A stretch of 64,000 bases of DNA, from contig NZ_CAAHFB010000001.1 in assembly GCF_900880625.1 (NCBI RefSeq), positions 930,001 through 994,000 of the forward strand, written 5' to 3'. This DNA comes from Halorhabdus rudnickae. Lineage in GTDB: Archaea; Halobacteriota; Halobacteria; Halobacteriales; Haloarculaceae. Below, in pieces: positions 43,544-49,658 of the stretch (position 1 is its first letter; each line of letters opens with the position of its first letter). The notes under the pieces were generated by a model. That model was not told where the DNA came from. It saw nothing but the letters and a program-made list of their open reading frames with translations, and searched no databases. The translations under genes and the position numbers were made by a program.

Positions 43544-44590
43544 ATGGCGATGACGGACACCGACGACCCGGCTGCGATCATGGAGGCCATCGAGTGGCGC
43601 CGCGGGCAAGTCAACGAGGCCATTCCGGAGAACCTGCCGGTCGTCGAGCCCAAGAAACTCTACGAGGCCTCGCGGTACCTGCTGGACGCGGGTGGCAAAC
43701 GACTCCGCCCGACGATCCTGCTACTCGCAGCTGAATCGCTGGCCGACGTGGCCCCGCAGGGTGAATCCTATCGGGAGTTCCCGGCGGCCGACGGGCCGAT
43801 CGACATGATGTCCGCCGCGGTGAGCATCGAGATCATCCAGTCGTTTACCCTCATCCACGACGACATCATGGACGACGACGACATGCGCCGGGGCGTTCCG
43901 GCCGTCCACCGGGAGTTCGACCTCTCGACGGCGATTCTGGCAGGTGACACACTCTACGCGAAGGCCTTCGAAAATATGCTCGAGACGGGGGCGACCGGCG
44001 ATCGCTCGGTTCGAGCGCTATCGGAACTGGCGACGACCTGCACGCAGATCTGTGAAGGCCAGTCGATGGACATCGAGTTCGAGACCGACGAGGGAGTCAC
44101 GACCGAAGACTACCTCGAGATGGTCGAACTCAAGACCGCCGTTCTCTATGCCGCCGCTGCATCCATTCCCGCAGTTCTCATGGGGAAGGACGACCACATC
44201 GACGCCCTCTATCAGTACGGCCTCAACATCGGCCGCGGGTTCCAGATTCAGGACGACCTGCTCGATCTAACGACCCCATCCGAAAAGCTGGGCAAACAGC
44301 GCGGTAGCGACCTCGTCGAAAACAAGCGGACGATCATCACCGTCCACGCCCGCCAGCAGGGCGTCGACGTGGATGGCCTCGTCCCCGAGGACGACGTGGA
44401 AGCAGTCGAAGAGGAAACCATCGAGGAGGCGGTCGCACAACTCGAGGAGGCGGGCAGTATCGACTTCGCCCGCGAGACCGCCGAGGAACTCATCCAGGAC
44501 GGCAAGGACAACCTCGAAGTCCTCCCGGACAACGAGGCCCGCGACCTGCTCGAAGGGATCGCTGACTTCCTGATCGAGCGCGAATACTGA
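43544..44590 (+). CDS. idsA: Geranylgeranyl (polyprenyl) diphosphate synthase
   Basis: 348 residues of the trans-prenyltransferase family. The first aspartate-rich motif is DDIMDDDDMRRG and the second is DDLLD. GGKRLRPTILLLAAE near the N-terminus binds the allylic substrate. It makes the C20 (possibly C25) chains of archaeal membrane lipids. It starts four bases after RNase J. The last 129 bp, including the stop, are duplicated 3.1 kb downstream (47590-47718), bracketing an AT-rich island. Confidence 0.93.
   Translation: MAMTDTDDPAAIMEAIEWRRGQVNEAIPENLPVVEPKKLYEASRYLLDAGGKRLRPTILLLAAESLADVAPQGESYREFPAADGPIDMMSAAVSIEIIQSFTLIHDDIMDDDDMRRGVPAVHREFDLSTAILAGDTLYAKAFENMLETGATGDRSVRALSELATTCTQICEGQSMDIEFETDEGVTTEDYLEMVELKTAVLYAAAASIPAVLMGKDDHIDALYQYGLNIGRGFQIQDDLLDLTTPSEKLGKQRGSDLVENKRTIITVHARQQGVDVDGLVPEDDVEAVEEETIEEAVAQLEEAGSIDFARETAEELIQDGKDNLEVLPDNEARDLLEGIADFLIEREY
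44462..44590 (+). repeat. Direct repeat, left copy (3' end of intact idsA)
   Basis: This 129-bp segment, ending exactly at the idsA stop codon, recurs at 47590-47718 in the same orientation without gaps and with eight mismatches (about 94% identity). Similarity ends at the stop on one side and just before codon GAC on the other. It behaves like one arm of an attachment-site pair. Confidence 0.9.
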
Positions 44591-45149
44591 CTGAAACGGT
44601 GTACGTTTACTAAATTATATTCTAGTGGTATAGGTGTATTTGGTCGACCCTATATATCCGACTATCGGGTTATGTAATATAGTGTGTCCATAAGACGGTA
44701 CCAGGAACATACACAGGCAGAAGTCCTGATAGTCTTACTCTCGCGACGTTGCCAGAAATCGAAGATACCCAAGATGAGCATTAGACGGAGTACAACGAAC
44801 CCGTGATCAAGTTGGTGAGGCAGCGAAAAGCGTCGCAAATTCGCGGCGCTGTGCGTCGCAAATGACCGACTAGCAAATGACGGAAGGGTCCATTCTTTCG
44901 ATAGAGCCGCTTTGGCCGCATGTCGGCCAGTAGTACTGCGTCGCTAAGGCTCGCTTGTCCCTTTCAGCCCACCAACATTCAATAGTTAGAAATAAGAAAT
45001 TTTTTATTCATCAAATGACTATCAAAACTCCACCTCTTACGACCATTATATTACCATCCATCATATGCTTGTGTGGCTACGATATTCAAAAGATAGATTA
45101 AAAATGAAATGGGAAAGGGTTTTATAGAAATGGTTTTATGTTGTCATTA
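44591..45149. other. AT-rich left end of the idsA-flanked island, no gene found
   Basis: About 560 bp of clearly lower GC than the rest of the window. It has several TATA-like stretches, and I see no convincing protein gene. The AT-rich final 130 bp hold a TATA box (TTTTATAG near 45119-45126) suited to the Tat-protein gene. Short reading frames are broken by stops in all frames. Confidence 0.5.
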
Positions 45150-46389
45150 ATGTCGGAAGAAGACTTCACTCAGGCAGCATGGAAACGGAGGAGTCTGTTG
45201 AAAGCAGCAGCAACAACAATAGGAGTCGGAACAGTCCCTTTCACAGCACTGGGGGACTCACCGCCCGCTGCCGTCGGCCGCAAGGGAGACCGTACTCAGC
45301 CTGTTAAAAAGAAGCATATTGAGAATGCTCGATCAGATATTCTAAGCAAGGAAGAATACGCATCAAATGGTTCTCGTCAGGCCATACTCTCCGAGGAACC
45401 TGTTCCGAAAGATAGGTATGTGGCTGGATATGTCATAAAAATCGAAAACGGGGCACCGACTGAACATATTTTCGAAGTTCACGACCCGAAGATTATACCT
45501 AAGAAAGAAGAAAATATAGTTGAGAAGGATCAAAAAAGGATCCAGATGGAAAACGTCATGATATAAACAGTGAGTCCTCATCAGACCCACATGGTGGTCA
45601 GGAGGATTCTCCAAACGAATTTCGGGAGAGACAAGAGAGGAATGCGCATGAGTCTGTTGATGAAATCTTATCAGAAAAAAGTGAAAACAAATCCGAAGTA
45701 TTAAGTATTCCTGAGCCAGCATGGAATCGGATCGGAACAGCTTCCAGACATAGTGCTATTTCCGCCACTCCAGAGCACGGTACTGACACATATGAGATCG
45801 GAAAGCTGGATCTGTTCGTAGAGGTGTGGGAAGTTGAAAACGACAGTCGTAGCTCTGAGAACTATATCGCTTGTACTCCACGAGCCGGCATTTGGCCAGG
45901 AAAAGCATATGATGACGGTTGGAAAATGCCGAAAACGAAGAAACTACCCTAATTCAAGATTGGACCGATAATTCATCTGGCGGTTATGAAATTACTGACT
46001 GGGGCCCAACAGAACCTAATACGGGCCATTTGAATTGGTCTATGTCTGCATCCTACTCCCCAGGGGGTGCGTCAGGAAGCGTTACAGCATCGTACGATAC
46101 CCCTTATATTTCTAGAGAGATAGAATCGGAACCACATGAGACGGTAGGACATGAATATACATATCCTGGATCGCCGTTCGATCTTTGGGACAAAGAAGCG
46201 AAAAGTCAGTTCGTTGAATTGGAAAGTATGGGAGAGGGGTGGATCGACAATTCAGATGAAAACGACACGATGTTAACTGTCGATCTGTCTCATGAGTTTT
46301 ATGCTGAACTGCCTTGGAATGATTCATTTAATGAAAAGGTGCACCCATCGGGCGATCTTGCAATATCCTGTAAAAGAGAAGATCTTTGA
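45150..46389 (+). pseudogene. Tat-exported protein broken by two frameshifts
   Basis: Three consecutive frames read as one protein of about 410 residues. Piece 1 (45150-45566) opens with a twin-arginine signal (WKRRSLLKAAATTIGVG). Piece 2 continues in the -1 frame from about 45532 to 45950 (NSESSSDPHGG, then IPEPAWNRIGTASRHS). Piece 3 continues in a further -1 frame from about 45921 to 46389 (NTGHLNWSMSASYSPGG). Both shifts fall at A-runs (CAAAAAAGG near 45532, GGAAAAT near 45921). The product would be a secreted, Ser/Trp/Gly-rich protein of no family I recognise. Homopolymer sequencing errors are an alternative to true decay. Confidence 0.6.
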
Positions 46390-47193
46390 TGGGTGAATGA
46401 TGAGATGTCAGGTGAAGCATGAAATTAATACAGGATTATTTGTAATGGTCCGTACCAGTAATTACCCGTCTCATTAGGAATCAAAGAAGTGAAATTTGAT
46501 ATTCGGGACAAGAGTGACAACGGCGTCGGTTGATGAAGTTGTAACATTCGACCGCACTTAGCCGGTCCAGCATTTTGAGTCCCATCTCAGAACGAAAGAA
46601 ATTCGTGCCTAGCGACAGTGAAAGGGCATCCACGATTAGTCCAGAAGGCCGATCTACAGCTAGTCAGCGGGAGAGTACCAAACCAAATCAAGCTTGACGA
46701 AACAATGACTGAAATCAGTGGCTAGCGGTACTGCTGTATACTGCCGCGAATCCTGAACGAACTGCTATTGATTCTCCGTATTCGACAGCAATGACGGAAT
46801 TAACACATTCATTCCCGCAAGAACTCTGCGAGAACCACGATGTTGAAGACATCCCAATAATTCTCTGATCAGTGGTGGCGAATGAGACGCTCCACGTCTC
46901 ACCAACACCGTGGATCTCGTCAATGGCACTTGCAATCTTGATACAGAAACGAAACGATCATCCCTCTTATTTTAGATTAAGCGGTACTTAGAACGGAGCC
47001 ATCTCAGATATGTCTTTGGTGGTATGACCCTCGAATGTCTTTATTTGTAATCTGTTGCAGTCAAACCAACCGGAAGCAGACGGACCCCATCTTCAAGTCT
47101 TCGCATCCTGACAAGATTCGGTAAACAAAGCACGACCTTAGACAGTAGCAAAAAACTTATTATTTGATAGTAATTATACAGAATTGGATAATA
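46390..47193. other. Gene-free stretch holding a transposase relic
   Basis: About 800 bp without an intact gene. The middle (46627-46854) is an IS6-type transposase remnant, annotated separately. The rest shows no coding frame I can defend. A TATA-like CTTATTAT lies near 47157, suited to the small membrane protein that follows. Confidence 0.5.
46627..46854 (+). pseudogene. IS6-family (ISH14/ISH29-type) transposase fragment
   Basis: Translated pieces align to the conserved core of haloarchaeal IS6 transposases. LVQKADLQLVSGRVPNQIKL is followed by DETMTEISG (the first Asp-containing catalytic strand), then a TAG at 46723, then LLYTAANPE in a shifted frame, NELLLILR in another, and LTHSFPQELCENHDVEDI in a further shift. 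At least three frameshifts and a nonsense codon make it dead. Neither terminal inverted repeats nor the C-terminal third could be found. Confidence 0.75.
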
Positions 47194-47391
47194 ATGTCAC
47201 CTGATAAATTATATACGAATAGTACTTCTTGGATCGCGTTAGCGATCTACGTAGTCACTATCAGTATTGCGGCGTCAGTCAGTAGAAACAGTCATCATGC
47301 ATCAACATACATCATGATTAGTTTCGTTCCAGCAGTTATCGGATTTGGTTTGTTGCTCCGTTCTTACTTCGGAGAATCCTCCACCAATTAG
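47194..47391 (+). CDS. Small membrane protein in the island
   Basis: 65 residues with two hydrophobic segments (about 12-30 and 40-57). ATG 47194 is preferred to 47164 because a TATA-like sequence (near 47157-47164) lies about 30 bp upstream, fitting a leaderless transcript. No family is recognised. Base composition matches the AT-rich island, not the host genes. Confidence 0.5.
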   Translation: MSPDKLYTNSTSWIALAIYVVTISIAASVSRNSHHASTYIMISFVPAVIGFGLLLRSYFGESSTN

Positions 47392-47909
47392 TCTCACAGG
47401 AACTAACCACCATCATTTGTGATTGAATCTAAGAATACCTCGTATTATAGACTCGTTTCGGGAATTCGTTCGATCGGCTCATTTCCCGTTGGAGATCTGC
47501 AGGGACACTGGTCTCCCCATTACATGTGAGTACCTCGTCACTCATTGGTCACCGTCTATTCGAGAGCGCGAATCGGCCGAATAGATGTTGACTTCACCCG
47601 CGAGACCGCCGAAGGGCTCATCCAGGACGGCAAGGACAACCTCGGAGTCCTCCCGGACAACGAGGCCCGCGACCTGCTTGAAGGGATCGCCGACTTCCTG
47701 ATCGAACGCGAATACTGATTCGACGCCAGTACGGGCACTGTTGTCCTGCCAATCTTGTCTCGGTAGCGATGACCGAAGTTATGACCCCGACGGCGTAACC
47801 GACTCTCTTCACGGTCGCTTCGGCCGGTGACCGCTGGTCGGAAGCGACCATCGCACGCACCTGCTCGAACCCGACGACGTTTTGACGACCGCCCTGCAAC
47901 CGACGGGTA
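47392..47909. other. Gene-free stretch with the right-hand idsA repeat
   Basis: The first 200 bp are AT-rich island sequence without a coding frame. Bases 47590-47718 are the degenerate idsA 3' end. The last 190 bp return to high GC and are the original upstream region of gltX, with no clear TATA box. Confidence 0.55.
47590..47718 (+). repeat. Direct repeat, right copy (orphan idsA 3' end)
   Basis: An in-frame but headless copy of the last 43 idsA codons including the stop, about 94% identical to 44462-44590. Five of eight differences are non-silent or hit first or second codon positions (GCC to ACC, GAA to GGG, GAA to GGA), as expected of sequence released from selection. It is therefore most likely the displaced host end. 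Confidence 0.85.
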
Positions 47910-49658
47910 ATGGACGAAGACCTTCGTGAACGCGTCGAAACAGCCGCCGAGGAGAGCGCGCTGTTCAACGCCTTGAAACACGACAGCGACGCCCAGGTCG
48001 GAGCTATCATGGGCCCGCTGATGGGCGAGAACCCCGACTTCCGTGAGTACGGTGACGAGATTCCGGGAGTCATCGCTCCCGTTGTCGAGCGGGTCAACGG
48101 GCTTTCGACCGATGCAAAACGTGATCGACTTGGAGAACTCGCGCCCGAACGGCTCGAGGAACTCGACGCCGATGACGAGGAGGACGAACACGCGTTACCC
48201 GACCTTCCTAACGCCGAGGAGTACGACGAGATCCGGATGCGCGTGGCCCCCAATCCGAACGGCCCCTGGCATATCGGTCACGCCCGGATGGCCGCCGTCG
48301 TCGGCACCTACAAGGACCGCTACGACGGGTACTTCGTCTGTCGGTTCGACGATACTGACCCCGAGACCAAGCGCCCGGATCTGGAGGCCTACGACGAGAT
48401 TCTCGATGCTATAGAGTACCTGGGATTCACCCCGAATCGGGTGCTAAAGGCCAGCGATCGCCTGGAAACCTACTACGCCTACGCGCGGGACCTCATCGAT
48501 CTCGGCGGAGCCTACACCTGCTCGTGTCCCGCCGAGGACTTCTCAGAACTGAAGAACAACGGGGAAGCCTGCCCCCATCGGGACAAGGATCCCGAAACAG
48601 TTCGTGACGAGTTCCAGGGCATGGTCGACGGGCTGTACAGTCCCGGCGAGATGGTCCTGCGGGTCAAAACCGACATCAAACACAAGAATCCCGCACTGCG
48701 GGACTGGGTTGCCTTCCGTCTCATCGACACGCCCCACCCCCGCACGACAGCCGAGGACTATCGTTGCTGGCCAATGTTGGACTTCCAGAGTGGCGTCGAC
48801 GACCACCTCACCGGCGTCACACACATCATCCGCGGGATCGACCTACAGGATTCGGCAAAGCGCCAGCAGTTCGTCTACGACTACTTCAACTGGGAGTACC
48901 CCGAGGTCATCCACTGGGGGCACGTCCAGGTCGAGGCCTACGACGTGCCAATGAGTACCTCGACGATCAAGGAGCTAATCGACGACGGCGAACTCGACGG
49001 CTGGGACGACCCCCGAGCACCGACGATCGCCAGCCTCCGGCGCCGCGGAATTCGTGGGGAAGCCATCGTCGACGCCATGACCCAACTCGGGACCTCGACC
49101 AGCAACGTCGACCTGGCTATGTCCGCTATCTACGCGAACAACCGCGAGTTGATCGACGACGAGGCCGATCGGGCCTTCTTCGTCCGGGACGGCGTCGAGA
49201 TGAGCCTCTCCGGCGGCCCCGAACGCGGCCAGCCCCCGGTCCACCCCGAACACGAGGAACGCGGCAAGCGAACGATCCCCGTCGGCTCGGCGGTGCTGAT
49301 CGAAAACGAAGACCTTCCCCCTGAAGGCGAGCGAGTCTGGCTGAAGGGCTATGGCTGCGTTCGCCGGAGTGATGAGAACGCGTTCGAGTTCACTGACGAC
49401 GACATCGACGTCGTCCGGGAAGGCGACGTCGACGTTATTCACTGGGTACCTGCGACGAGGAGCGTCCCTGCACGACTGCGGACGACCGAAGGTGACGTCA
49501 CTGGTCACGTCGAACCGGGTGTGCTCACTTACGACGACGGCGAAATGGTCCAGTTCGTCCGCGTCGGCTTCGCCCGCCTCGATGCCGTGCCCGAATCGAC
49601 CGACCCGGCGGATCTCGGTGAAGACGACGAACTCATCGCCTACTTCGCGCATCCGTGA
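47910..49658 (+). CDS. gltX: Glutamyl-tRNA synthetase
   Basis: 582 residues, archaeal GluRS. RVAPNPNGPWHIGHAR contains HIGH at 121-124, and the KMSKS-equivalent is VPMSTSTIKE. The C-terminal half is the beta-barrel anticodon-binding region seen in archaeal and eukaryotic GluRS/GlnRS, not the bacterial helical cage. The N-terminal 100 residues form the archaeal-specific extension. Haloarchaea normally use this enzyme to charge both tRNA-Glu and, through GatDE, tRNA-Gln. Confidence 0.92.
   Translation: MDEDLRERVETAAEESALFNALKHDSDAQVGAIMGPLMGENPDFREYGDEIPGVIAPVVERVNGLSTDAKRDRLGELAPERLEELDADDEEDEHALPDLPNAEEYDEIRMRVAPNPNGPWHIGHARMAAVVGTYKDRYDGYFVCRFDDTDPETKRPDLEAYDEILDAIEYLGFTPNRVLKASDRLETYYAYARDLIDLGGAYTCSCPAEDFSELKNNGEACPHRDKDPETVRDEFQGMVDGLYSPGEMVLRVKTDIKHKNPALRDWVAFRLIDTPHPRTTAEDYRCWPMLDFQSGVDDHLTGVTHIIRGIDLQDSAKRQQFVYDYFNWEYPEVIHWGHVQVEAYDVPMSTSTIKELIDDGELDGWDDPRAPTIASLRRRGIRGEAIVDAMTQLGTSTSNVDLAMSAIYANNRELIDDEADRAFFVRDGVEMSLSGGPERGQPPVHPEHEERGKRTIPVGSAVLIENEDLPPEGERVWLKGYGCVRRSDENAFEFTDDDIDVVREGDVDVIHWVPATRSVPARLRTTEGDVTGHVEPGVLTYDDGEMVQFVRVGFARLDAVPESTDPADLGEDDELIAYFAHP

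Follow-up and report, generated by a model that had tools for sequence, protein, structure and literature searches.

Hotspots that lie between core genes and are free of integrases have been described in bacteria, and recombination in the flanks has been proposed as the route of their exchange (Oliveira et al. 2017, PMC5635113). In the T6SS effector-immunity arrays of Vibrio cholerae, homology-facilitated illegitimate recombination (HFIR) acts through one-sided homology and displaces the old 3′ end together with its cargo (PMC5361080), and similar displaced orphan 3′ ends are ascribed to Rhs loci, at least as these are cited in PMC5361080. The homeocassettes and conflicting islands of Halorubrum ezzemoulense have been attributed to mating followed by homologous exchange in the conserved flanks (PMC11078007). 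A small literature search returned no published report of idsA in such a role. Here, the idsA–gltX interval was analysed in a window of 64 kb (the whole stretch of DNA under study) from a 3.36-Mb Halorhabdus genome (G000). Genomes G001 (H. amylolytica) to G006 belong to the genus of the window and G007 to G012 to a group that includes Halapricum; all other handles denote further genera of the family. The interval is probably an integrase-free hotspot for cargo, in which orphan idsA tails, that of the window included, are the joints of stacked interval versions.

The idsA gene (43544–44590, forward strand) is intact and encodes a polyprenyl/geranylgeranyl diphosphate synthase of 348 aa (Pfam PF00348, 3.7e-67), orthologues of which are present in 146 of 146 family genomes. 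A direct-repeat search showed that its final 129 bp (44462–44590; the functional copy, T) recur on the same strand at 47590–47718 as an orphan copy (T′), and alignment of the two gave 94% identity with eight mismatches and no gaps, a direct observation that agrees exactly with what had been claimed in an earlier note on this DNA. The pair is the sole direct repeat of at least 60 bp inside the window and the sole direct pair in the surrounding 440 kb of chromosome (at least 50 bp, at least 85% identity, 0.3–30 kb apart), and the whole G000 genome holds exactly two copies of the idsA tail. The identical search of 433 kb of G006, used as a control, returned its own idsA pair and two further loci; the survey targeted idsA tails, and the direct-repeat control covered 870 kb from two genomes. 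G006 also has a 271-bp direct repeat (G006:C1:1973947-1974217 and 1975565-1975835; 92% identity, 1.6 kb apart). An assembly artefact or a chance repeat, for which no supporting point was found, can be given hardly any credence, as the repeat is 129 bp long at 94% identity, unique in 440 kb and on one contig, its copies and flanks differ, and structures of this kind recur in two related genomes. Both tail copies stop at the idsA stop codon and idsA is full length, so that the 3′ end of the host gene has been kept. When polarised with six species, the eight differences fall at approximately four per copy; the functional copy carries a Gly-to-Glu change that is absent from all other species compared, and T′ is nearest to T of its own genome (8 mismatches, versus at least 11 to any other species).

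The strip between the copies (44591–47589) has a GC content of 0.442 compared with 0.626 for the window, as the earlier reading of this strip as AT-rich had it (44.2% versus 62.6%), and host-like values return in the orphan copy (0.628) and the next 191 bp (0.618). It begins with an AT-rich non-coding leader of approximately 560 bp (44591–45149), which cannot be aligned to the shorter leader (~215–250 bp) of G003 and G004. Three cassette genes follow on the forward strand, each recognised through its G003 and G004 orthologues. Gene 1 (45150–45676), encoding a Tat-signal protein, is frameshifted between ~45497 and ~45551 (tblastn in two frames, 41–50% identity, 1e-30 and 5e-29); gene 2 (45701–46386) has a frameshift near 45930 (tblastn in two frames, 57–59%, 5e-70 and 8e-75); and gene 3 (47194–47391), encoding a small membrane protein, is an open frame (50%, 4e-15 and 6e-14). 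Between genes 2 and 3 lie approximately 800 bp that are missing from G003 and G004 and contain the relic of an IS240/IS6-type DDE transposase (46452–46865, forward strand; tblastn 33–44%, 2.6e-10; a relative matches PF13610), and DNA akin to this relic is present in many family genomes. In line with the earlier note, this intervening DNA is AT-rich, has been acquired and has for the most part decayed. The earlier description of its content as only decayed or orphan genes has to be amended, since three genes, two of them frameshifted, are recognisable beside the transposase relic and have syntenic homologues.

In both G003 and G004, the idsA–gltX interval is occupied by this same three-gene cassette, encoding a Tat-signal protein, a protein of 227–231 aa and a small membrane protein; its synteny is observed directly, and no copy of the idsA tail was found there, including by sensitive local alignment. 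It follows that the cassette can be separated from the repeat. The cassette is rare, its second gene being present in 7 of 392 genomes of the order. The pair of a Tat-signal protein and a ~230-aa protein starting MPEP-W-RIG, sometimes with the small membrane protein, is unannotated, and searches of Pfam and NCBIfam gave no convincing match for it; no confirmed relatives of a cassette protein were found in IMG/VR. The loci with the rare pair include the idsA–gltX intervals L013 and L014, an unrelated locus of G011 (L157:8608-9812) and a different contig of G000 (L156:9181-10364, G000:C4), where this second pair is intact.

The earlier note read the repeats as the trace of site-specific integration, in which an element whose attP was a copy of the idsA 3′ end left T as attL and T′ as attR, the tyrosine recombinase having acted in trans or since been lost. 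The AT-rich DNA between the copies favours this, as does the fact that in G000, G006 and G012 the repeats terminate precisely with the stop codon, and there is precedent in that, of 68 thaumarchaeal integrated elements whose sites are defined, 14 are located in 3′ regions of genes that encode proteins (PMC6563490). On the att reading, T′ should be followed by what was originally downstream of idsA, and this DNA should resemble the interval of empty relatives. Relatives with an unbroken idsA–gltX spacer do exist, as had been anticipated, namely G001, G002 and G005 (67–69 bp). However, their spacers do not define an attachment site in the way proposed, as the match lies in the 30 bp before T′ and not in the DNA after it. 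The segment 47551–47580 (forward strand) resembles positions 9–38 of the 69-bp G001 spacer with a score of 28 (best of 500 shuffles 25; p = 0.002; score reached by 4 of 6372 overlapping 60-nt windows across the whole window), although the match is 30 bp including a gap and many flank pairs were compared, so that its corrected significance is modest. D′, the DNA after the orphan copy (47719–47866), showed no resemblance to the spacers of G001, G002 and G005 (p = 0.61–0.75), a flank mismatch that is observed directly. A likeness of D′ to the DNA downstream of idsA in G003, noticed by eye, was not significant (p = 0.14).

Had a cassette been inserted directly behind idsA, the old spacer would end where 47551–47580 lies. 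The match before T′ would thus be the right end of one interval version (version 1, consisting of idsA, the AT-rich cassette and the old spacer) and T′ the left end of another (version 2, consisting of T′, D′, the P1 leader and gltX); as a sequence likeness it is supportive of stacking but not decisive. Because the spacers of empty relatives match before and not after T′, stacking is favoured over an attR reading, and the synteny of the cassette in G003 and G004, where the idsA tail is not repeated, favours it further. These comparisons do not support the proposed attL and attR, as the same cassette occupies the same place in G003 and G004 with no repeat and the outer flanks fail to rebuild an empty site, and integration appears unlikely for the window. 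Duplication of the target itself is another explanation for the repeat, either as a long target duplication, in which the idsA 3′ end would have been broken in staggered fashion and filled in around the inserted DNA, or as a local tandem duplication of T with later insertion of the cassette. T and T′ are each other's nearest relatives and the two copies in G006 are identical, both of which would suit a duplication, and for restriction-modification genes of H. pylori, insertions that have long, variable target duplications and lack a recognisable integrase have been described (cited in PMC3031569 and PMC1643837). A duplication would be expected to leave the native spacer after T′, but the G001, G002 and G005 spacer matches before T′ instead.

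Consistent with the earlier statement that no integrase remains, the interval and the surroundings of idsA in G000 yielded none. PF00589 gave no match near idsA in either G000 or G006, no recombinase or integrase was detected when the open reading frames of the G006 island were scanned, and tblastn detected no integrase beside idsA in approximately 85 loci, with a positive control that worked. The absence of an integrase from both islands and from beside any idsA examined counts against integration and is one of the reasons for preferring stacking. The elements ending in an idsA 3′ fragment that the earlier note proposed to look for were not encountered among the plasmids, phages and IMG/VR contigs tested: the phage collection gave no match to the idsA tail, no IMG/VR contig had the exact pattern, and the plasmid collection gave one match, which was rejected as an orphan tail because it falls within a gene annotated as polyprenyl synthetase on a Natrinema megaplasmid. 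Neither the plasmid nor the phage collection thus offers the integration reading an orphan tail. The repeat lengths (129, 73 and about 74–83 bp) also vary across cases, with no single core as integration would require.

The gltX side of the interval may be mosaic. The window gltX (47910–49658, forward strand; Pfam PF00749) is intact and preceded by a P1-type leader (CCCGACGACGTTTTGACGACCGCCCTGCAACCG..., 47867–47909, forward strand), which G000 has in common with G003, G004 and G006 and which is diverged in Halapricum; G001, G002 and G005 have a different leader, P2. In the idsA plus gltX tree, G003 groups with G002, and G004 and G006 group with G005. The scatter of P1 and P2 over this tree indicates that leader types were exchanged or changed repeatedly, and such mixing, taken as exchange of junction versions, supports stacking. 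Within gltX, approximately the first 266 nt are nearer to G006 and the remainder is nearer to G001, with 80% of informative sites G006-like in the first 266 nt versus 37% beyond. A maximum chi-square test of this mosaic gave p = 0.008 in one of four comparisons (p = 0.036–0.40 for idsA), and the G006-like head on a G001-like gene is a further argument for stacking. Over approximately 105 family genomes in which idsA and gltX are linked, the distance between them ranges from 45 bp to 28.7 kb and the cargoes differ, which fits a hotspot. G023 has, besides an intact idsA–gltX elsewhere, a second idsA of identical score followed by pieces of gltX in separate frames (G023:C1:3299701-3303488), which looks like a duplicated segment whose gltX is in decay.

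Orphan idsA tails were found in three further genomes; a second match was also recorded in G254. In G095, the leader between yihY and gltX and approximately 28 gltX codons, colinear with the idsA–yihY–gltX arrangement of G094, run directly into an idsA tail, behind which lies a lipoprotein gene; seven other genomes have this lipoprotein gene directly after idsA. Both single versions, with either yihY or the lipoprotein gene as cargo, are therefore present in relatives. This joint of a gltX head and an idsA tail between two cargoes, read directly from the DNA, is what would be expected from stacking idsA–yihY–gltX and idsA–lipoprotein–gltX, and argues for stacking at this interval. A duplication leaves unexplained both the gltX-head/idsA-tail fusion and the different cargo on each side of it, and for the window it is considered improbable.

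In G012, an orphan tail matching at 62 of 66 bases lies 8 bp behind trpG (L074:4248-4314), and the DNA after it is 96% identical to the idsA downstream region of the sister genome G007. The complete idsA of G012 lies 1.16 Mb from the orphan tail, on the opposite strand and with different DNA behind it. From the flank identity and the relocated idsA, the orphan tail is taken to be the old idsA end at a rearrangement joint. A simple two-break inversion was rejected, as a search of the 10 kb behind the G012 idsA did not find the DNA that follows trpG in G007. The tails of G006 and G012 (73 and 74 nt) had seemed to begin at a common left boundary, a reading likewise discarded because in full alignment the G012 match continues leftward with mismatches. 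The G095 and G012 tails, being rearrangement joints and not element ends, are points against integration.

In G006, a low-GC island of 14.7 kb is followed by 73 bp that repeat the idsA end of this genome perfectly, so that the earlier suggestion of the idsA 3′ end as a site of such events is borne out by recurrence. The island (L010:1800-16194) encodes protein kinases, a tubulin-like protein and a PQQ-propeller kinase, also harbours the relic of a transposase, and is possibly a defence or conflict island. Its kinases resemble PD-T4-6, MAD6 and PglW kinases, and the tubulin-like protein, which is Tubulin_2-like, had no confirmed relatives in IMG/VR. Another ~14 kb, mostly missing from other Halorhabdus genomes, lie between the orphan tail and gltX, so that the tail is flanked by two unrelated accessory blocks, as stacking would produce; no leader or gltX remnant was detectable ahead of it. 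A dispersed repeat of ~180 bp (L039:5653-5832) also occurs in G006, and copies of 69–95% identity are widespread in all Halorhabdus genomes tested. The G006 structure fits an att model as well as it fits stacking, and the perfect 73-bp repeat around a low-GC island, which is identical as att sites would be, keeps the att reading alive and has to be counted against stacking. A general role of the idsA 3′ end as an attachment site for integrase-less haloarchaeal islands moved in trans, with the G006 island recent and that of the window old and decayed, is nevertheless doubtful.

The stacking of interval versions is the simplest account that covers the window, G006, G012 and G095. Interval versions would pass between cells by recombination in the flanking genes, and an occasional illegitimate end would stack two of them, leaving an idsA end (in G095, with a gltX head) between the cargoes. 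In the window, version 1 would have been joined just upstream of gltX to version 2, which starts inside the idsA 3′ end; the joint at the boundary of the old spacer and T′ would be illegitimate, and homology within idsA or gltX presumably anchored the other side. On this account, the orphan tail would form the left border of a second idsA–gltX junction and would not be an attR, and it would end at the idsA stop codon because the downstream DNA of version 2 itself starts there. The approximately four differences on each copy, more than a freshly copied att site needs, are also in keeping with stacking. That the window arose as in G095, by a one-sided mechanism (HFIR-like or unequal), and the order and direction of events are inferred from sequence comparison. 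Version 2 alone (idsA, D′, P1 and gltX, with a spacer of ~190 bp) was found in no genome, the only versions found being cassette-only and empty, and the window has no gltX-head remnant of the G095 kind. It also counts against stacking that T′ is nearest to T of its own genome, so that version 2 did not simply come from a G006-like donor, though the gltX head is G006-like.

These results indicate that a textbook att-site pattern can come from recombination between alternative versions of an interval, and that a simple test is to ask on which side of the orphan copy, behind it or ahead of it, the DNA matches the empty site. Genome scans that omit a check of this sort would count scars of this kind as integrated elements. 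The idsA–gltX locus thus offers an archaeal interval in which cargo is swapped, and sometimes stacked, with no recognisable mobile machinery, leaving datable scars. As in the thaumarchaeal elements (PMC6563490), the 3′ end of a conserved gene is restored beside foreign DNA, but those elements carry or imply an integrase and generally have short att or TSD sites, whereas the idsA locus is without an integrase. Long direct target repeats also bracket inserted genes with no integrase in the cases of Nobusato et al. 2000, as cited in PMC3031569 and PMC1643837, and the native flank predicted there after the second copy is not what the window contains. The locus shares with the hotspots of Oliveira et al. 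variable content between two conserved genes, no recognisable integrase and possibly mosaic flanks; ordinary double crossovers at such hotspots leave no orphan gene end, whereas exchange at idsA–gltX has left a fragment of a flanking gene. HFIR at T6SS and Rhs loci does leave an orphan 3′ fragment after one-sided displacement, and is a candidate mechanism in Halorhabdus, although the T6SS fragment is that of the toxin module itself and the fragment here belongs to a housekeeping gene bordering the interval. In Halorubrum ezzemoulense, too, different islands can occupy a single haloarchaeal locus bounded by the same core genes; its alternatives, as described in PMC11078007, replace one another, whereas those at idsA–gltX may be stacked with a fused scar between them.
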